Shown here in pieces: positions 2,639 through 28,464 of a stretch of DNA of 64,000 nt (position 1 is the stretch's first letter; each line of letters begins with the position of its first letter). Below the pieces are notes generated by a model. The model was not told the origin of the DNA and did not search any database. It saw only the letters and a list, made by a program, of their open reading frames with translations. Both the position numbers and the translations under genes were made by a program. The DNA is from Deltaproteobacteria bacterium HGW-Deltaproteobacteria-2. Lineage in GTDB: Bacteria; Desulfobacterota; Syntrophia; Syntrophales; Smithellaceae. The stretch is from positions 499,901 through 563,900 of the forward strand of contig PHBC01000001.1 in the NCBI GenBank assembly GCA_002840505.1, in the 5' to 3' direction.

Positions 2639-2706
2639 TCGGGACTTAATCGGTTTACACAAAATTAAAACTTAATATAATTGTTGATTTAGGCGTTTCC
2701 GGTATT
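2639..2706 (+). repeat. partial third copy of the AT-rich island-end repeat
   Basis: This aligns with the first half of the repeats at 3880-4021 and 21699-21830 (GGGACTTAATCGG, then an AT-rich stretch, then TTTAGGCGTTTCCGGT). It lacks the T-arm/CCA end, so it looks like a decayed or truncated copy. Confidence 0.6.
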
Positions 2707-2815
2707 CTCTTTAGCTGCAACGATAGTTTATTTTATCTCTTAATTATAAATAAGTTTTTCGGTAAGTTTTCTTGAGTTATTTTTCAAATAGAAAGAAATT
2801 TACAGATGATTAATT

Positions 2816-3879: not shown

Positions 3880-4021
3880 TTATTGGGTCGTGAATTTAGT
3901 CGGGACTTAATCGGTTTTAATCGGTTTAAACAAATTTAAATCTTAATAAAATGGTGGATTTAGGCATTTCCGGTAAACTCTCACGCCGGAAACCGGGGTT
4001 CAACTCCCCGTGGGACTACCA
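3880..4021 (+). repeat. island-end repeat with tRNA/tmRNA 3'-end segment (att-like)
   Basis: This 142-bp unit is repeated, somewhat diverged, at 21699-21830. Its last 31 bp (3991-4021) are identical to 21800-21830 and fold as a T-arm (CGGGG, loop TTCAACT, CCCCG), followed by a 7-nt acceptor strand, A73 and CCA. The identity stops exactly at CCA. No matching 5' acceptor strand or D/anticodon arms are present, so it is a 3' fragment, as left by integrases that insert at tRNA or tmRNA 3' ends. This copy carries an extra 10-bp internal duplication. Confidence 0.65.
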
Positions 4022-4130: not shown

Positions 4131-5789
4131 TTATAATTCGGTGATGAGCGTTGAAAGGTAAGTGCGCTCTTCGCCGATGGGAATCTTCGGAAGGATGACC
4201 TCCTGCACGGCTTTTTTCGCCCGCGTTATGCCCTGCTCTTTCTCTTTATCCGTAAGTTCAATATCGTCAAGTTCGGACGCCGCCTCGATTGATTCGCGTA
4301 AGCTGAAGACGAATTTGATCGGATCGTCTGATTTTCCCTCGTAGTAGGCACGGTATGCTTCGCGTATCTTGTTGGCCATGTCAACGATCTCCTTCAAATC
4401 TTCAATACGCTCCTTGCGATCTGCTGTGAGAAAATCTGCCGCCAGTGGATCGCTCTTGTCATTTACAACGTTATCCCAAAGCAATTGGAAGTCCTTCAGG
4501 TCGAGCTCCTTGAGATTCGCGACATACTGGCGGAGAATCATCGCTTCGTCAGAACGGTACTGTTTCGGCTCATGGGATGTCTTGTCCTCTTTTTCGAATG
4601 GTGGATAGGTAATTTCCATGATGCGCGCCCGCGATTTGATCGTTTCCGCGAGCGGCTTCACGCCCATGTAGTGTTGCGGATTTTGAAGTCCGACCAAGAC
4701 AACTTCATTCGCCGCCTTAACCACTTCTTTGTCCTCGCCAAGGAAAAGCGCGCGGTCGTGATCGAATAGCGAGTTCAGTATTTTCGCCACTTCCGGCTTC
4801 AGGGTGTTGATTTCGTCGAATTCCAAAATCGCGCCAGGCGTCTCAAGCGCCTCCACGACGGTGGAATTGATCCGGTATGTGCCACGCTTCGAATCATATT
4901 CCAGCAAATATTTCAAATCCTGTTCGTCCTTACCTGCCGAGCAGGTGAAGCGGAAGACCGGCCGACGTGTAAGATACGCCAGATGGTCGACGATTTTGTT
5001 TTTACCGGTGCCCGCATCGCCCTGGATAATCACGACGCCCTGACCGCGCTCTCGCTGGCGGTTCATAAGGCGGATAAATTTCTCCATTGTCTTGACAACA
5101 TGAAGAGTTTCTACAAAATACGGATCGCGCCCCAAAATTCCCGTGACTTTCTTAGTGGCCACTCCGTTCAAATGCCGCAGCACCCGCAAGACCCACTCTG
5201 AATTCGGGTGTTTTTCATGCAGTTCTTTGAGATAAACCCGCGCTTTCTCTTTTTTCTTTTTATCGTCGCTTGAAATGTTTTTAATGGCTTCAAGATAATT
5301 TTCTTTTGTATTCTTCAGAGCTTTGAATTTCTCGATGGGCATGAAGCGGTCTTTATCTCCAAAACGCACCTTACCCTCAACGGGCTCCCCACCGGGCTGT
5401 ATCTCAAGGCCGTCGCTCCGCATGAAAGAAATATCCACCATCGTCTGCCCTTGTTCGCGGAATTGGTGCGCTACGATGTCCCATGAAAGTTTCTCTTCAT
5501 TGTCCTCGAACACTGTCGTCCACTCGCGTCCGATGCGCACTTTTTTCCCGTTTCTTTCTTCGGCAATCATTTCTCTCTCCCTGCTCCGGCTCTCAAGAAA
5601 GGCTTCCACTTCGCTCACTTTCACCTTTACGTCCATCTGGCAAAGAATCTCCTTCACCTCTTCGGGAACGTTCCGGGACTGTAGAAGTTCTTCTCGCGTC
5701 CTTTCGATTTCACCCAGGCGATCAATGTCTTCCTGACGTAAGGCACTTAATGATTCTATTTTCCCCATGGTTTTGAATTTTTCTTTCAT
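4131..5789 (-). CDS. MoxR/AAA_5-type AAA+ ATPase
   Basis: A 552-residue ATPase. An N-terminal charged region of about 240 residues is not recognised. The AAA+ core has Walker A G-D-A-G-T-G-K-N (257-264), Walker B I-L-E-F-D-E-I-N (321-328), a sensor-1 Asn near 370 and an arginine-finger candidate in S-R-A-R-I (386-390). AAA_5/MoxR ATPases usually remodel a target through a VWA partner, and a VWA protein is encoded two genes upstream on the same strand. No Shine-Dalgarno is visible before the ATG at 5789 or before the in-frame ATG at codon 8. The target is unknown. Confidence 0.8.
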   Translation of the reverse strand: MKEKFKTMGKIESLSALRQEDIDRLGEIERTREELLQSRNVPEEVKEILCQMDVKVKVSEVEAFLESRSREREMIAEERNGKKVRIGREWTTVFEDNEEKLSWDIVAHQFREQGQTMVDISFMRSDGLEIQPGGEPVEGKVRFGDKDRFMPIEKFKALKNTKENYLEAIKNISSDDKKKKEKARVYLKELHEKHPNSEWVLRVLRHLNGVATKKVTGILGRDPYFVETLHVVKTMEKFIRLMNRQRERGQGVVIIQGDAGTGKNKIVDHLAYLTRRPVFRFTCSAGKDEQDLKYLLEYDSKRGTYRINSTVVEALETPGAILEFDEINTLKPEVAKILNSLFDHDRALFLGEDKEVVKAANEVVLVGLQNPQHYMGVKPLAETIKSRARIMEITYPPFEKEDKTSHEPKQYRSDEAMILRQYVANLKELDLKDFQLLWDNVVNDKSDPLAADFLTADRKERIEDLKEIVDMANKIREAYRAYYEGKSDDPIKFVFSLRESIEAASELDDIELTDKEKEQGITRAKKAVQEVILPKIPIGEERTYLSTLITEL

Positions 5790-5866
5790 TGATTTCTGTT
5801 GCTATAAAATATTTTTTACAACCAAAAAACCGGTTAGTATCAAGATTCCAATAGCCAATGATGAAA

Positions 5867-6739
5867 CTACCGGGACGGACACACGCCAAGGTGCAATGAC
5901 GAGTATCCCCTGACAACGTAGTTAACACCCAGGCCATTGGAGCCGAATTTACCGACCAACATGAAGTAGCCATCCGACGACTGCACATCGGTCCAGTCCC
6001 AATCCTTTTCCAAAATGTGTTTGTTCCTTACATGGTAATATGCGGGAATGTCGTACGCTGCCTCGGCAGGCGTTCGCCGGGTAACGAATTTTGGATCGAC
6101 CTTGTGTTCCTTCGCCCATTGTTGCAAAATTTTTTCCTGTTCGTCCCAATTCTTACTGCGCGACTCATCGAGTACTTCTTTTTTGACGATTGCCCACGTC
6201 ATCCGCACGGCATTTTTCTGGTCCGTCGCAAACTTTTCATTATTATACCAACTCAGGTCATAGAAAAGACCTTTAAATTTCTTCCGCAAATTCTCTATCG
6301 TGGCCAGTAGTTCCCTGCCTTCGTGCATGATTGTCGGAGTCCGGAGGACTACCATAAAACCCTCGTCTTTCAGGCGTTCGATATCTTCCCTTGTCAGGCT
6401 CTGTTCCTTTATTTTTTCAATCCACATATTGGCGATTTGTTTCTTCTCATTTTCATTGAACTTCCGGCCTGTGAATTTTTCAATCTCCAGGATGCCGAGG
6501 AAATCATTTTTGAAGAGCGCTTTTATTTCACGCAGGGACAAGCCTTCCGGCGCACGTTCACTCTCCGGCAGCGTTTTTTCCCTGAGCCGGTTCAGACTTT
6601 CCAGCACGGCTCCGAAATCGTTTGCCACAAATGATTCCTGCGCCCGCTTCGCGAGGTCGGTAAGATCCCTTCGTTCGCTTTCGGCCTGCGTCTTTTCGTT
6701 CTTTTTCCTGAATGCTTCAAATGAAAATTTTTCCAGCAT
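5867..6739 (-). CDS. conserved-context hypothetical protein of the AAA+/VWA module
   Basis: A 290-residue protein of unknown family. The first 170 residues are highly charged and helical (possible coiled coil). The C-terminal 70 residues are richer in aromatic and Gly residues (W-D-W-T-D, G-K-F-G-S-N-G-L-G) and look like a small beta domain. It starts 4 nt after the VWA stop codon and lies 77 nt before the ATPase, so it is probably co-transcribed and may be an adaptor or substrate. No Shine-Dalgarno precedes its ATG. Function not assigned. Confidence 0.65.
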   Translation of the reverse strand: MLEKFSFEAFRKKNEKTQAESERRDLTDLAKRAQESFVANDFGAVLESLNRLREKTLPESERAPEGLSLREIKALFKNDFLGILEIEKFTGRKFNENEKKQIANMWIEKIKEQSLTREDIERLKDEGFMVVLRTPTIMHEGRELLATIENLRKKFKGLFYDLSWYNNEKFATDQKNAVRMTWAIVKKEVLDESRSKNWDEQEKILQQWAKEHKVDPKFVTRRTPAEAAYDIPAYYHVRNKHILEKDWDWTDVQSSDGYFMLVGKFGSNGLGVNYVVRGYSSLHLGVCPSR

Positions 6740-6743
6740 GGTA

Positions 6744-8906
6744 TTATAAACTCTTTTTCTCGAACCGCGCGAGCTGATTGCTCAAAATCTTGAGGAATGC
6801 CTGCTGTAACCTGCCCACGTCCGGTACCGGCAGACCGTTCTTGTCATAATATTCCTTGATAGTTGCTTCCATCTCGTATCCTATCCCCACGCCAATCAGA
6901 GGGATTTGCTTAGACCATTTTCGTACGATGTTGTGTAGCTCCCATTCGGCGCCTGCGTGCGCCGCGCTCGGCACAGGTTTGCCATCGGAAAACACGATGA
7001 GCACCCCTGCCGCGTTGTTTTCCATAAGTTTTCGCTGGAGGCGGCGAGCGGCGGCGTCCACTGCATAACCGTCGTCGTTCCATTGAGCATTGGATGTTTC
7101 CACTTCTTTTAATACGCTCATTATCTTTAATTTTTTCTTCCCGAAGTACTCTTCATCGAATCTTTTAAGTTCGATCAGTTTATCATGGAATGCAAGTATC
7201 TCGAATGGCAAGCCTTTTTTCGAAAAAGCCTCCGCCATAAGGATGGCTGCTTTCAAAGCTTCTATGATATTCCTTCCCCGCATGCTGTTGCTCACGTCGA
7301 TAAGAAGCGAAAACACCACTTCACGTATATCGGGTATTTCCCTGGTTTCAAAGAATTTGCCATGCTCCGTGGGAACTTCCCTCGCCAATCGTTTGGCGTC
7401 AATCCGCTTCCCTCGCTGTCGGCCGCCTTCCCATGCTTCTTCTTCCTGCGGCGGGAAAACCTCGTCCAAGCGTTCGACTAGTATGTTTACGTATTTTTTG
7501 ATCTGATCATAATACTTGTTATACTGGCTGCGTTCTTCTTCCGTCAGGCCGGTCGCACGTTCCCGGAGCCGTTCTTCGGCTTCGCGAGCGGCCTTCGCTA
7601 CTTCTTTTTTGGTCTTGTTGATCTGTTGCGCTCGGTCAGCTTCGCTTTCCTCGTATTCTTTCTCTTGAGCTTCGGCTTTTTTTACGTCCTCGTTGTTCAC
7701 CTTGCGCGGTTTTATTTCAAGAGTGCCGTCTTTTTTCTCTGCCACTTCCACCGACTTCGGCTGAATGTGCCCGACAAATTCGCGTTCTTCTTCGGTAAGC
7801 TTTTCGCGCGCTGCCGTGCGGTATTTCTCTGTTTTCTCCGGAGACAAATCGTCCGACGAACGCTCAAGTTGCCCTTCTTCAGACAACATTCCTTCCTGCG
7901 ACGCGTTTTCCTGTTCTTTCCGGGACGATACTTCTTCTTTTCCGTTTTTCTTTTCTACTGATTCCTGTTGCCCTTCGCCCTGTGTTTGTCCTTCCTGAGA
8001 TTTGCCCCCGCCACTTCTATGTTGCGATATATTTTCAGATTCCGTACGCTGCCGCCTGGCTTCCTCTTCCACGTACCTGTCAATCAGTTCCTTGAAAACC
8101 GGCCATCCTTTCCGCCAGAGGATTTCCCGGAAAGCTTTGCGTCCCTTGCCTTCGTGCAGGTATTCGTCAAGTGCCGCCTGCGTTTCTTCATAGGCCTTCA
8201 GCACTTTCGCATCCTTTATCCTTGCCTTCATTGCCTCGAAGTCAAATCCCTTAATGAACGGTTCCGCGCCTTTCGCCCAACACAACGCGCTGTACTGGAC
8301 AGGAAGCGGTCGCTTTTCAAAATCGTGCGTGAGCGCATCAGCAATATCCTCCTGGAGGTATGCACCAAGGCGCCACTTTGCGGTAGCGGATGTCTGTCCT
8401 TCAAGGGCGTTCGAGCGGCCGTCTTCCCACGCGTCGTAGATCATGAAAAGATCCATTGGCTGATAGCCTTCCATCTTCGCTCCCTCCTGTGCCTCGATAA
8501 CCGACCGATAATCGGAATGCTTCAGACGGCCGACTTCACGGCGAAAAATGCCGAAAATGTAATCTTCGCTCCGATTTAGAAGATCTTTTTCAGAATACGT
8601 CATAATTTCCGGAGCAAGAAGTTTCTCGTCAAATTCTTCCAGGCTTTTTCCGGGATACCTGCGGCGTTCCTCTTCAAATTTTTCGGAAAGTCCCGCCGTC
8701 CATGCCTGCCCAGGCATCAGACGCAAACCGAAATTTTTTGACAATGTTTTAGCGACGAAACGAAGACGATTTTTCAGTTCCTGGATTTCGCGTTGATTAC
8801 GCTTTTGTTGATCGGCTTTTATCTTTTCAGAGACAAACGTTGCGGCCTCAAATGAGGTCTTTTTCGCTTCCGGTTGAAATTCTGTATCAAAGGATACTTT
8901 CTTCAT
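6744..8906 (-). CDS. VWA-domain protein, CobT-like, partner of AAA+ ATPase
   Basis: A 720-residue protein. Residues 1-285 are helical. About 290-480 is a low-complexity charged linker rich in E, K, Q and S. The C-terminal VWA domain has the MIDAS motif D-V-S-N-S (537-541) and a later F-S-D-G. This layout resembles the CobT subunit of cobaltochelatase and VWA partners of MoxR ATPases. No CobN-like chelatase subunit is present, so cobalt insertion is unlikely. It is the first gene of the module, driven by a consensus promoter whose predicted start lies only about 6 nt before the ATG, with no Shine-Dalgarno. Confidence 0.75.
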   Translation of the reverse strand: MKKVSFDTEFQPEAKKTSFEAATFVSEKIKADQQKRNQREIQELKNRLRFVAKTLSKNFGLRLMPGQAWTAGLSEKFEEERRRYPGKSLEEFDEKLLAPEIMTYSEKDLLNRSEDYIFGIFRREVGRLKHSDYRSVIEAQEGAKMEGYQPMDLFMIYDAWEDGRSNALEGQTSATAKWRLGAYLQEDIADALTHDFEKRPLPVQYSALCWAKGAEPFIKGFDFEAMKARIKDAKVLKAYEETQAALDEYLHEGKGRKAFREILWRKGWPVFKELIDRYVEEEARRQRTESENISQHRSGGGKSQEGQTQGEGQQESVEKKNGKEEVSSRKEQENASQEGMLSEEGQLERSSDDLSPEKTEKYRTAAREKLTEEEREFVGHIQPKSVEVAEKKDGTLEIKPRKVNNEDVKKAEAQEKEYEESEADRAQQINKTKKEVAKAAREAEERLRERATGLTEEERSQYNKYYDQIKKYVNILVERLDEVFPPQEEEAWEGGRQRGKRIDAKRLAREVPTEHGKFFETREIPDIREVVFSLLIDVSNSMRGRNIIEALKAAILMAEAFSKKGLPFEILAFHDKLIELKRFDEEYFGKKKLKIMSVLKEVETSNAQWNDDGYAVDAAARRLQRKLMENNAAGVLIVFSDGKPVPSAAHAGAEWELHNIVRKWSKQIPLIGVGIGYEMEATIKEYYDKNGLPVPDVGRLQQAFLKILSNQLARFEKKSL

Positions 8907-21698: not shown

Positions 21699-21830
21699 TT
21701 ATTGGATCGTGAATTTAGTCAGGACTTCATCGGTTTAAACAAATTTCAATATTGATAAAATGGTAAATTTACGCATTTCCGACAAACTCTCCCGCGAAAA
21801 ACCGGGGTTCAACTCCCCGTGGGACTACCA
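21699..21830 (+). repeat. island-end repeat, second copy with T-arm/CCA segment (att-like)
   Basis: Copy of the unit at 3880-4021, without that copy's 10-bp duplication and with substitutions scattered through the AT-rich part. The last 31 bp (21800-21830) are identical in both and end exactly at CCA. The two copies are in the same orientation and about 17.8 kb apart, so they could bound an inserted island. Confidence 0.65.
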
Positions 21831-21893: not shown

Positions 21894-21912
21894 GAGAGCG
21901 TTGCTCTCTTTT
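21894..21912 (+). terminator. terminator after the AraC-type gene
   Basis: A GAGAGC-GTT-GCTCTC hairpin followed by TTTT on the plus strand. It abuts the stop codon of the convergent small gene at 21911. Confidence 0.55.
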
Positions 21913-22114
21913 AACATATCTTGATTCCGCAGTCTTCTGTCGCAGCACCTGGATTCATCTCAGGAACTTCTCCGTCGCTTAGTACGATCTTATACCCACA
22001 CCTTGGGCATTTGCGGATCTCAACTGATCCGACAGTGTGTCACCCGCCCGTACCGACGAAGATATAATCGGTGTGATCCTTTTTCAATTTACAGTTTTTA
22101 CAAATCAATTCCAT
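21911..22114 (-). CDS. small zinc-ribbon protein with in-frame TGA (selenoprotein candidate)
   Basis: Reading from ATG 22114 to TAA 21911 gives 67 codons in one frame, interrupted only by TGA at 22042-22040 (codon 25, context T-G-G-TGA-H-T-V-G). On both sides the protein looks intact: C-K-N-C near the start, C-P-R-C-G in the middle and D-C-G-I-K-I-C at the end, i.e. paired cysteines as in zinc-ribbon or redox proteins. AGGTG lies 5 nt before the ATG and a near-consensus promoter lies upstream. A 6-bp stem-loop begins 9 nt after the TGA. Reading TGA as selenocysteine explains the conserved frame; a recent nonsense mutation is the alternative. The biochemical function is unknown. Confidence 0.6.
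22014..22031 (-). promoter_or_regulatory. bSECIS-like stem-loop after the in-frame TGA
   Basis: On the minus strand CGGATC (22031-22026) pairs with GATCCG (22019-22014) around the 6-nt loop AGTTGA, starting 9 nt after the TGA. Bacterial SECIS elements are short hairpins just 3' of UGA with a G early in the loop; here G is the second loop base. The spacing is at the short end. Confidence 0.4.
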
Positions 22115-22163
22115 GTTTTCACCTACAGGACTATAAAACAATTTTTTAACATATTGTGTTTTG

Positions 22164-22192
22164 ATTTTAAGAAGGCTGTCCTACCTTGTCAA
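22164..22192 (-). promoter_or_regulatory. promoter of the TGA-containing small gene
   Basis: Minus strand TTGACA (22192-22187), 17-nt spacer, TAAAAT (22169-22164). The leader is about 40 nt, with AGGTG before the ATG. Confidence 0.65.
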
Positions 22193-24466: not shown

Positions 24467-26269
24467 CTAATTAGTGGGATTGATTTTTAATTTACTTCCC
24501 ATAAAACGTGATACGGAATCATTATCCAGAAAACATCTTACAGACAAACCTTCCGCAATCGAAAATCTGTCTATCAGTGTCATATTGGCAAGAACATATT
24601 GAGAAATCGGATCGCCGGAAGGGAAAGAAAATTGTTTGTCTTGCCAGAAGCGCAGAGGTTCTTCCAGAGCAATAGGCACCAGAGCAGGCATTGCTTCAAA
24701 CACGTAAACCAGTTTGGGCTTGCGCCCACGGGTTTTCATGAATTCCATTGTCATATGAAGATAATACTCAGGCTCCTCTATAAAAGAAATAATAGGGTCT
24801 TGCAGGGCTGGTCTACGCCGGGCTATCATGTGCACCATGGGAGAGGAAACATAAGAAATTATATAATCATTTTTATTCGAATAAGCCTGAGACGTTGTAC
24901 TGATCCAGTCATACAAGTTTTTGTAAATCTGATTGGTTTTGATGCCCTTGCCGAACCCTGCTTCTATTTCAGCATTTGCCTGTTCAGGAGCCACATCGAA
25001 AAAAGTATATTGCCAGTCAGACCATGCCGTTGAATAGTAAAAAGGAGCAAAAAACAAGATTAAAATAGCCAATTTTACAAGATAGATTCTTTTTTTGATC
25101 GTTTCCATGGATAAAATAACGCATGCCATTGCTGCTATAGCGGGTATGGAAGAGTGAAGCACCGTCAGGAAACCTACGGCAGAAAGAATACTGCTGGTAA
25201 TGGCTGCGATTACGCTATAAAAAAAGAGGACAATGGCAAGCGATTCAAAGTTACTCCAAGGCGTTTTCTTAACAATTTTGAATATGAAATAACACAAAAA
25301 CAATAAATACGATGATGCCAATAAAGCGGCAAACCATAGGGGACGGCTATACCATCCGTTATACCAGCCATGATAATAAGGAGTTGTCAATCCGAACAGA
25401 GACGTGTTGATGGCAAAAAACATCATTATTGATAGTATGAACAATAAGCCAACTAATGATACCGTCTTCGATATCTTTGTACTCCACAAAAAGGCACTCG
25501 TAAAAAGAAAGGTGATGCTGACGCGTTTCAATGCTTCCCCATTAATGGAAATGAGGGGCCCCGCTAAATGAGGGGATGAAGAAAGCCTCAATTGAACCTC
25601 TGTAATAACACTCTGGATGAAGGCATTTCCGTAAATACCAAGGAAAATTATCCACAATAATAAAACCGGAGCCATAACAAAACATAGATCCTTAAAATTA
25701 AAATCAAGAGCTTCTATTTTAAATCTCCTGATAATAATAAACAATATAATCACCGAAATGACGACCACACTCATGTGGAGCAGACTGAAGCTGATCAGCC
25801 CCATGATGAAGAATGCCAGATGAAGAGTTATAAACAGATGGGGATAGGTGTAATAGTTAAGATTCGAGATTGCGCCCACGGGATCAAGCCCTGTAAACGC
25901 AAATACGGAAAATATGAGCGGTTGGAACCAGAAATCTTTATTGATTCTATATAGCGCGAAGCTCAAAAACAACAGTGAAAAAATAGTAAGAATAAATTGC
26001 AATTCCCGGAAACCGAGCAATGTTATGCCGGGGTAAAGCCTGAAAACAAGAGCGTTAATCAATATTGCAGCCCTGGGTGCACCTGTAAATTTGTCACTGA
26101 AAAAGTCATCACCGACTGTAAGCCGCCAGGCCTCTGTCATGTGCCAGCCTTCATCGCCAAAATTAAAACCGTATTGGAGTTTGAACCATCCGAATACGGC
26201 GGCCACAATGAAAATGCTACAAGATATAAAAAAGGGAAGAAGCTGGCTGGAATGGATTTTATTTTTCAT
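24467..26269 (-). CDS. multi-pass membrane protein (GT39-like), paralogue lacking the TPR tail
   Basis: A 600-residue membrane protein with about ten hydrophobic segments and an early G-D-E-G-W-H loop, placed like the acidic loop of PMT/GT39 glycosyltransferases. Nearly the same sequence follows upstream at 26278-28464, so the two arose by tandem duplication. Compared with that copy, this one stops at TAG (24469-24467), and the next codons still match the paralogue for about eight residues before a second stop: the TPR tail was lost by mutation. The ATG at 26269 has GAGG 6 nt upstream and is preferred over a TTG at 26281. Glycosyl transfer is inferred from topology. Confidence 0.75.
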   Translation of the reverse strand: MKNKIHSSQLLPFFISCSIFIVAAVFGWFKLQYGFNFGDEGWHMTEAWRLTVGDDFFSDKFTGAPRAAILINALVFRLYPGITLLGFRELQFILTIFSLLFLSFALYRINKDFWFQPLIFSVFAFTGLDPVGAISNLNYYTYPHLFITLHLAFFIMGLISFSLLHMSVVVISVIILFIIIRRFKIEALDFNFKDLCFVMAPVLLLWIIFLGIYGNAFIQSVITEVQLRLSSSPHLAGPLISINGEALKRVSITFLFTSAFLWSTKISKTVSLVGLLFILSIMMFFAINTSLFGLTTPYYHGWYNGWYSRPLWFAALLASSYLLFLCYFIFKIVKKTPWSNFESLAIVLFFYSVIAAITSSILSAVGFLTVLHSSIPAIAAMACVILSMETIKKRIYLVKLAILILFFAPFYYSTAWSDWQYTFFDVAPEQANAEIEAGFGKGIKTNQIYKNLYDWISTTSQAYSNKNDYIISYVSSPMVHMIARRRPALQDPIISFIEEPEYYLHMTMEFMKTRGRKPKLVYVFEAMPALVPIALEEPLRFWQDKQFSFPSGDPISQYVLANMTLIDRFSIAEGLSVRCFLDNDSVSRFMGSKLKINPTN

Positions 26270-26277
26270 ATGAGGCC

Positions 26278-28464
26278 TCAATCCCTAACATTAGCTTCTT
26301 GAAGTTTCTTCAGAATCGCCTTATAGTCCTTCGTATTTTTGATGTTATCAAAATCATGGTCTGTCTGCAAAAGTCCCCCATCATTAAAACCTTTATCCAC
26401 CGCTTTCGTAAGCCACAGAATTGAATCGTTAATTTGTTTTCGCTTGGCATAGATACAGGCAATATTATAGTAACTATCAATCCTATTCGGATCAATTGCT
26501 ACAACTTTTTTCAAGAGATTCAAGACTTCCAGATCATTTCCTTTCAGAGATTGATTGATCGCCAGGCGCATCAAAGCCGGGATGAACTTCGGGTTGGTAT
26601 CCAGTGCTCTTTGATAATATCTTTCGGCCTTATTAAAATTCCCCCGCCTTTGATAAAAATTTCCCATAAGCAAATTTGAATTCGGATTAGCGGGATCAAT
26701 ATTCAATTTATTTTCCAATACACGTAATGCAGACGCATTATCAAGAAAACACCTTACAGATAATTCCTGCGTAATGGGGAAACTGTCTATCAGTGTCGTA
26801 TTGGCAAGGACATATTGAGAAATAGGATCGTCGGAAGGGAAAGAAAATTGTTTGCCTTGCCAGACGCGTAGAGGTTCTTCCAGATTAATAGTATACAGAG
26901 CAGGCATTGCTTCAAACACGTAAACCAGTTTTGGCTTGCGCCTACGGGTTTTCATGAATTCCATTGTCTTATGATAATAATCCTCAGGAAACTCTGCAAA
27001 AGAAATATGGGATTCATCCAGGGCTGGCCTGCGCCTCGCGATTATATACACCATGGGAGAGGCAACATAAGAAATTACATAATCATCTTTATTCGAATAA
27101 GCCTGAGACGTTGTACTGATCCAATTATATAAGTTTTTGTAAATCTGATTGGTTTTGATACCCTTGCCGAATCCCGTTTCTATTTCAGCATTTGCCTGTT
27201 CAGGAGCTACATCAAAAAAAAGAAATTTCCAGTCAGTCCATACCGTTGAATAGTAAAAAGGTGCGAAAAACAGAATTAGAATGGTTAATTGTACAAGATA
27301 TGCCCTCTTTTTGATGGTTTCCAAAGACAGGATGATGCATGTCATTGCCGCCACAGCAGGGATGGAAGAGCCGAGTATTGCTCCAATGCCAACACCAGAA
27401 AACATACTGCCGTCGATGGCTGTAATTATGCCGGGAATAAAAACAATAAGAGCAAATAATTCAAAATTATTCCATGACTTTTTCTTGACAATTTTAAATA
27501 TGAAATAACACAAAAATAAGAAATACGATGATGCCAATAAAGCGGAAAACCACATGGGACGGTTATACCAGCCGTTATACCAGCCGCGATGATAAGTCGT
27601 TATCAATCCGAAAAAGGTCGTATCGATAGCCGTGAACATCAATATTGCCAGTATTGATAAGACAGCCACTAAAAGAGCGGTCTTGGATATCTTTGTGCTC
27701 CACAAAAAGACAATCGTAAAAAGCAAGGTGATGATGGTATATTTCAAGACCTCCAGATTAATGTAGATTAACGAGTTCACTAATGGATTTGAAGGAGAGA
27801 ATATCACTTGAAGTGATGAAATGACATTCCAGATGAAGGCGTTTCCATAAATACCAAGGAAAATTATCCATAATAATAAAACCGGCGCCATAACAAAACA
27901 CATATCCTTAAAATTAAAATCAAGAGCTTCTATTTTGAATCTCCTGATAATAATAAACAATATAATCACCGAAATGACGACCACACTCATGTGGAGCAGA
28001 CTGAAGCTGATCAGCCGAAGGGTTATAAACAGATGGGGATAGGTGTAATAGCTAAGATTCGAGATTGCGCCCATGGGATCAAGCCCTGTAAACGCAAATA
28101 CGGAGAATATTATCGGCTGAAACCAGAACTCTTTACTAATTTTGTATAGCGCGAAGCTCAAAAACAACAGTGAAACAATAGTAAGAATAAATTGCAATTC
28201 CCGGAAACCAAGCAATGTTATGCCGGGATAAATCCTAAAAATAAGAGAGTTAATCAGTGTTGCAGCCCTGAGCGCACCTGTAAATTTGTCACTGAAAAAG
28301 TCATCACCGACTGTAAGCCGCCAGGCCTCTGTCATGTGCCAACCTTCATCAGCAAAATTAAAGCCGTAGCGGAGTTTAAGCCATCCGAATACGGCGGCTA
28401 TCATGAAGATACCGAAAGATATGGCAAAAGGGAGCAGTTGGCTGGAACGGATTTTATTCTTCAT
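26278..28464 (-). CDS. multi-pass membrane protein (GT39-like) with C-terminal TPR domain
   Basis: A 728-residue protein. Residues 1-420 hold about ten membrane spans with an early A-D-E-G-W-H loop. A soluble domain follows, and about 595-728 form tetratricopeptide repeats (A-E-R-Y-Y-Q-R-A-L-D-T-N-P, then D-S-Y-Y-N-I-A-C-I-Y-A-K). It is the full-length partner of a tandem duplication; relative to the downstream copy it lacks 7 residues in one loop (a 21-nt in-frame deletion). It ends 8 nt before that copy's start. It is likely a membrane glycosyltransferase or its scaffold; acceptor and donor are unknown. Confidence 0.75.
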   Translation of the reverse strand: MKNKIRSSQLLPFAISFGIFMIAAVFGWLKLRYGFNFADEGWHMTEAWRLTVGDDFFSDKFTGALRAATLINSLIFRIYPGITLLGFRELQFILTIVSLLFLSFALYKISKEFWFQPIIFSVFAFTGLDPMGAISNLSYYTYPHLFITLRLISFSLLHMSVVVISVIILFIIIRRFKIEALDFNFKDMCFVMAPVLLLWIIFLGIYGNAFIWNVISSLQVIFSPSNPLVNSLIYINLEVLKYTIITLLFTIVFLWSTKISKTALLVAVLSILAILMFTAIDTTFFGLITTYHRGWYNGWYNRPMWFSALLASSYFLFLCYFIFKIVKKKSWNNFELFALIVFIPGIITAIDGSMFSGVGIGAILGSSIPAVAAMTCIILSLETIKKRAYLVQLTILILFFAPFYYSTVWTDWKFLFFDVAPEQANAEIETGFGKGIKTNQIYKNLYNWISTTSQAYSNKDDYVISYVASPMVYIIARRRPALDESHISFAEFPEDYYHKTMEFMKTRRRKPKLVYVFEAMPALYTINLEEPLRVWQGKQFSFPSDDPISQYVLANTTLIDSFPITQELSVRCFLDNASALRVLENKLNIDPANPNSNLLMGNFYQRRGNFNKAERYYQRALDTNPKFIPALMRLAINQSLKGNDLEVLNLLKKVVAIDPNRIDSYYNIACIYAKRKQINDSILWLTKAVDKGFNDGGLLQTDHDFDNIKNTKDYKAILKKLQEANVRD

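Follow-up and report, generated by a model that had tools for sequence, protein, structure and literature searches.

We believe that a small Smithella gene interrupted by an in-frame TGA is very probably a working selenoprotein gene, although the evidence is comparative and there is no experimental proof of selenium. The reading we favor, with a probability of roughly 0.8, is that it encodes a 67-residue selenoprotein whose UGA is decoded by SelB. The protein has cysteine knuckles like those of MasE, and its gene is a separately promoted paralogue of a longer form, probably serving the alkylsuccinate synthase system. Alkylsuccinate synthase is the enzyme by which oxygen-free bacteria attack the alkanes of crude oil.

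The gene in the window

The window is the whole 64,000-nucleotide stretch that was analysed, and the gene, which we call the short form, lies on its minus strand. An earlier sequence-only reading had described one frame of 68 codons including the stop, with TGA as codon 25 and cysteine pairs on both sides of it. It had also described a TTGACA-N17-TAAAAT promoter, AGGTG before the ATG and a 6-bp hairpin that begins 9 nt past the TGA. All of these elements are present as claimed:

21911..22114, minus: coding sequence of the short-form selenoprotein, 67 codons plus TAA
22114, minus: start ATG, read from the sequence
21913-21911, minus: stop TAA, read from the sequence
22040..22042, minus: TGA in frame at codon 25, taken as selenocysteine; every orthologue and most long-form homologues have TGA, the others TGC or TGT
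22091..22102, minus: first CxxC knuckle (C5, C8), aligned with the MasE iron ligands C3 and C6 (PMC12358834)
21998..22009, minus: second CxxC knuckle (C36, C39), aligned with the MasE iron ligands C32 and C35 (PMC12358834)
22014..22031, minus: bSECIS-like hairpin CGGATC-AGTTGA-GATCCG, 6-bp stem and 6-nt loop AGUUGA, 9 nt after the TGA
22164..22192, minus: sigma-70-type promoter TTGACA-N17-TAAAAT, kept in 4 of 4 Smithella species
22192-22187 and 22169-22164, minus: the promoter boxes TTGACA and TAAAAT of the short-form gene
22120..22124, minus: ribosome binding site AGGTG, its GGTG kept in 4 of 4 species
21894..21908, minus: hairpin GAGAGC-AAC-GCTCTC directly 3' of the stop, without a T run; read from the sequence, no function assigned

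With the TGA read as U, the protein is MELICKNCKLKKDHTDYIFVGTGGUHTVGSVEIRKCPRCGYKIVLSDGEVPEMNPGAATEDCGIKIC. The promoter gives 11 of 12 matches. The gene stands alone, next to a divergent glycosyltransferase gene and an AraC regulator gene. No homologues of AssA, MasB or MasE were found anywhere in the 64 kb, and the short-form gene is not part of a mas/ass operon.

A long form with Sec or Cys at the same column

A profile search, run on 395 genomes from the phylum and 155 from the order, recovered a longer relative across the Desulfobacterota. This long form is about 112 residues in length and joins the same CxxC-Sec-CxxC core (CxxC...G-U-P-A-C/T-G...R-x-CPxCG) to a C-terminal part that is helical. 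A gap-free alignment of 52 columns places the Sec of the short form over that of the long form (hhalign 97.7%, E 1.5e-12). The sequence-only reading had proposed asking what homologues carry at the TGA column, and the answer is U or C only: the sampled long forms have TGA in 16 distinct genes, Cys (TGC or TGT) in 8, and no other residue. Judged from these alignments, the exchange is of the kind typical of selenoproteins. The best tree calls for three changes of state, but its deep forks are weakly supported. All eight Cys long forms have CxxC from this column onward, while the Sec long forms have UxxC, UxxT or UxxS. The short form reads UHTV; the Cys found at U+3 in most long forms is missing from it, and hence it has no UxxC motif.

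No Pfam or NCBIfam model scores over its cut-off for either form. The Pfam zinc-ribbon families stay below their gathering cut-offs, the best at 18 bits against 30.3 (PF13717) and 13.9 against 27 (PF13248). No relatives were found in viral contigs or plasmids. The weak A1 matches L047, L048 and L053-L058 were rejected as other proteins, mostly CxxC proteins without Sec at the column and in some cases MasE homologues.

Relation to MasE

The nearest relative of known structure is MasE, the delta subunit of (1-methylalkyl)succinate synthase, which is rubredoxin-like and holds one iron on C3, C6, C32 and C35 (PMC12358834). MasE sits where the activating enzyme would bind and contacts the glycyl radical domain through its C-terminal tail (WGKSAGIE), and the authors of the structure call its use of a rubredoxin-like fold enigmatic (PMC12358834). 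Our family shares with it an N-terminal CxxC and a second CxxC knuckle in the same order and at similar spacing, and the long-form gene adjoins masE. Long forms and MasE homologues match at 95.3% in hhalign (E 2.2e-8), and the long-form profile finds PDB 9o8u_D at E 0.005. Residues 3-50 of the long-form AlphaFold model match the same chain with a VIA Z of 5.5 (2.4 A over 46 residues, 30% identity). Such a score would be weak by itself and counts here only because the sequence and operon evidence agree with it. Foldseek gave no match for this model at E <= 0.001, and 9o8u_D surfaced only in a second look with VIA, where most rows came from the common helical C-terminal part. The model also has a low-confidence stretch at residues 25-29. 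For the short form the direct match to MasE is weak (61%, E 8e-5), a PDB profile search with it alone found only generic zinc-ribbon proteins, and its AlphaFold model (pLDDT 53) is too poor for a fold search.

Neither form is MasE itself: the WGKSAGIE tail is missing and Sec or Cys25 has been added. The tail is absent from short and long forms alike, whereas in the adjoining MasE homologues it is invariant (PWGKSAGIE). In its place the long form has its helical region, and the short form closes with a tail of 20 residues, the last of them Cys. Between its knuckles MasE has RIDAS, with no Sec or Cys there. The comparison with rubredoxins has similar limits. The MasE fold is rubredoxin-like, with one iron on four cysteines, and the long-form profile matches rubredoxins weakly (E about 1), but the family has Sec between the knuckles instead of the rubredoxin core and no rubredoxin family matches over its cut-off. 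The sequence-only reading had called the protein a zinc ribbon. This label possibly names the wrong metal site, the nearest solved relative being the rubredoxin-like MasE.

Association with alkylsuccinate synthase

The long-form loci lie mostly in alkylsuccinate synthase (ass/mas) operons, between masE and the gene of a MoxR-type AAA ATPase, a link that was out of reach for the sequence-only reading. This ATPase is the next gene found downstream on the same strand, at 37-345 bp, in 17 of the 18 loci, and a VWA protein usually follows it. A MasE homologue lies 32-650 bp upstream in 14 of the 18, with AssA ahead of it in 11 loci, most of which also have a MasB-like small subunit and a radical-SAM activase. 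Several of the remaining loci, where MasE or AssA was not found, are broken off by contig ends. Comparison of the operon proteins with PDB 9o8u gives matches to MasD (1208 bits) and MasB (E 1e-24), and a relative of the masE-like operon gene matches MasE at E 4.8e-24. Pfam assigns to the operon proteins PFL-like plus Gly_radical, Radical_SAM, AAA_5 and VWA. Smithella sp. SCADC has been reported with assABC and masE (PMC4208337). One long-form locus, L087 (G046:C11:30411-30746), with TGA and a UPATG motif, is the only one of the 18 with neither ass genes nor a MoxR ATPase nearby.

AssA-type enzymes were counted by hand as matches of at least 57% identity. In the phylum sample they accompany the long form in 16 of 17 genomes, and in the order sample in 11 of 11; AssA occurs alone in 3 and 2 genomes respectively. 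Six of 17 Smithella genomes have AssA. The short form is present in four of these six and absent from all 11 that lack AssA (Fisher p 0.006, uncorrected for kinship and resting on four related genomes). The source genome has several copies of AssA-type glycyl radical enzymes, 69-86% identical to that of SCADC. Some of these copies are broken at contig ends (G000:C5, G000:C6), which leaves the count of ass operons uncertain.

We believe the gene of the window probably serves the alkylsuccinate synthase system because within Smithella it occurs only in genomes that carry this enzyme. One can instead argue that it is a selenoprotein with no part in alkane activation, working generally in thiol/selenol redox or metal handling, and that it owes its MasE-like knuckle fold to old descent. 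We consider this unlikely, but it is the strongest of the other explanations. Its proponents could point to the stand-alone gene with its own promoter and its glycosyltransferase and AraC neighbors, to the two Smithella genomes with AssA that lack the short form (G007, G011), and to the weak direct similarity with MasE. Against it, the long form and AssA are present in each of the four Smithella that have the short form, and the eleven Smithella without AssA lack it.

The mechanism we propose for the alkylsuccinate synthase reading is inferred at each step. The UGA would be decoded by SelB with the help of the hairpin downstream of it. A single metal ion would be bound by the four cysteines C5, C8, C36 and C39. 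Sec25 would lie on the loop that joins the two knuckles, in the long-form model the low-confidence stretch 25-29, and would be a selenol redox center, holding the oxygen-sensitive glycyl radical enzyme or its activase in a reduced state or repairing it. The gene of the window would be a single-gene, separately promoted paralogue working for the same system. A role in redox or in upkeep of the radical during alkane activation remains an inference. The most likely job is to keep alkylsuccinate synthase or its activase reduced and radical-competent; we give this about an even chance for the long form and a smaller one for the gene of the window. On the more general claim we come down, if only just, on the affirmative side: alkane activation by fumarate addition may use an unrecognised selenoprotein, a Sec-bearing MasE paralogue in the ass operon together with a stand-alone paralogue in Smithella, that may protect, re-reduce or help install the glycyl radical.

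If this is true, alkane degradation is partly selenium-dependent and selenium supply could limit the anaerobic degradation of oil. If the link holds, reconstitution of MASS, reported to be low-yielding and unstable, may need the family's protein. The work also places one more small gene in alkylsuccinate synthase operons, beside masE, whose design the structural authors find enigmatic. The natural Sec and Cys variants of these operons are a ready set for testing what benefit selenium brings to glycyl radical enzyme upkeep.

Translation through the TGA

The short-form orthologues of Smithella sp. SCADC, M82 and SDB_sulfate1 have TGA at the same codon, and their proteins are 97% to 84% identical to that of the window. 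The sequence-only reading had named a read error at 22040-22042 as something that would refute it; this is excluded because independent assemblies have the same TGA. A chance TGA is excluded as well, since it stands at the same codon in three more Smithella species and in the divergent paralogue family.

The standard code formally gives a peptide of 24 residues, and one could hold that the TGA is a real stop with a decaying or separately translated remnant after it. We regard this as very improbable. The substitutions after the TGA are of the coding type. Compared with SCADC there are three changed codons before the TGA and three after, all synonymous, and the one extra codon of the window gene comes after the TGA. 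Compared with M82, third codon positions make up 9 of the 15 nucleotide differences after the TGA. Both CxxC knuckles are invariant, and the C-terminal residue is the only other Cys kept in all short forms. The TTGACA...TAAAAT promoter and the GGTG are kept at all four loci, while the region 3' of the stop diverges much more. The TGA is also kept in the divergent long-form genes, and the other homologues run uninterrupted with Cys there. By this pattern of change, selection acts on the short-form gene both before and after the TGA. No Cys version was seen within the short subfamily. Two hits, L016 and L017, were rejected as chance matches. Transposase-like genes, of the IstA/IstB type by eye, lie upstream of the SCADC orthologue (L013, 1288-2996), and its promoter region is still kept.

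Recoding signals and selenocysteine machinery

Short and long Sec genes share one hairpin geometry, in which nt 8-14 after the TGA face nt 21-27 across a 6-nt loop. The stems themselves differ in sequence (CGGAUC/GAUCCG and CCGGAGA/UCUCCGG). Cys genes also have a hairpin of this geometry, but a weaker one. Mean pairing is 5.95 of 7 in Sec genes against 4.38 in Cys genes (p about 0.002), and the MFE is -8.9 against -4.0 (p about 0.003), for 20 Sec and 8 Cys genes without correction for kinship. In the Smithella long forms this register contains one mismatch, and the fold is in a shifted register. The published bSECIS model asks for a stem of at least 4 bp, a loop of 3-9 nt, a G in the first two loop positions, a spacing of 16-37 nt and an MFE of -7.5 or lower. 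The sequence-only reading had suggested a check of this kind, and here stem, loop, G and MFE (-9.0) of the window's conserved hairpin are within the limits, but the 14 nt from TGA to loop fall 2 short.

The selenocysteine machinery, whose absence would have counted against recoding, is all there: the genome has genes for SelA, SelB, tRNA-Sec and a SelD whose own frame contains TGA, and FdhA genes containing TGA are present too. Two tRNA genes with anticodon tca are called tRNA-Sec by ARAGORN, at G000:C3:236670-236763 (L018) and G000:C1:453455-453545 (L019), and the second of the two scores lower in Rfam (54.9 against 73.8 bits). This weaker tRNA, whose charging is unknown, is all that speaks for the UGA being read as something other than selenocysteine (Trp, or Cys through an unusual tRNA), an idea we give hardly any credence, given that homologues have Cys and never Trp at the column, that the complete machinery and the standard TGA selenoproteins SelD and FdhA are present, and that the hairpin after the UGA is weaker in Cys genes. 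Selenocysteine at this codon, left as an inference by the sequence-only reading, is now supported by the conserved TGA, the Cys homologues, the hairpin and the machinery together.

Other small selenoproteins

Two described families resemble ours. Hypothetical protein DG (NF049953, zinc ribbon-containing (seleno)protein; deep-Sep, PMC12013277) is a small protein with a CxxC metal knuckle and has Sec in some Desulfobacterota, but it has another architecture, over 172 positions. We reject it as the same family: the best score is 16.1 bits, for a long-form protein, against a cut-off of 130, and the loci do not overlap.

Desulfosarcina sp. BuS5 and D. widdelii PP31 are hydrocarbon degraders, and hypothetical protein DW is found in both. 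DW is the name used in a 2026 review for the family NF041197, Dual CXXC motif small (seleno)protein (OS_HP3), which by its name has two CxxC and Sec. Its listed motifs are RxU and GxU, whereas the long form has GU-P-A-C/T. DW was considered as the same family; neither form matches NF041197 (cut-off 40 bits) up to E 10, a result that does not include a direct comparison to DW sequences. An earlier listing of the long form under another name, such as DW, is possible.

The review of May 2026 counts 119 prokaryotic selenoprotein families (PMC13188914), and none of them is given there with our family's motif and context. The sequence-only reading did not recognise a described selenoprotein family, and its absence from that inventory, from Pfam and from NCBIfam agrees. 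No literature joining alkylsuccinate synthase with a selenoprotein was found, subscription papers being outside the search. The result adds to the selenoprotein families one whose TGA would make gene callers split or overlook it.

Other features of the window

A repeat of 105-142 bp with a tRNA-like 3' end (CGGGG...CCCCG) has three dispersed copies in the window (2646-2750, 3880-4021 and 21699-21830). It has no Rfam match, and parts of it also occur near the short-form orthologues in L013 and L014. On the minus strand at 4131-8906 an ATPase gene lies close to a VWA-like gene, and the ATPase is 29% identical to the MoxR protein of the ass operon. Two large membrane protein genes at 24467-26281 and 26278-28464 are tandem duplicates with about 82% DNA identity, the second with an extra TPR-like C-terminal part.
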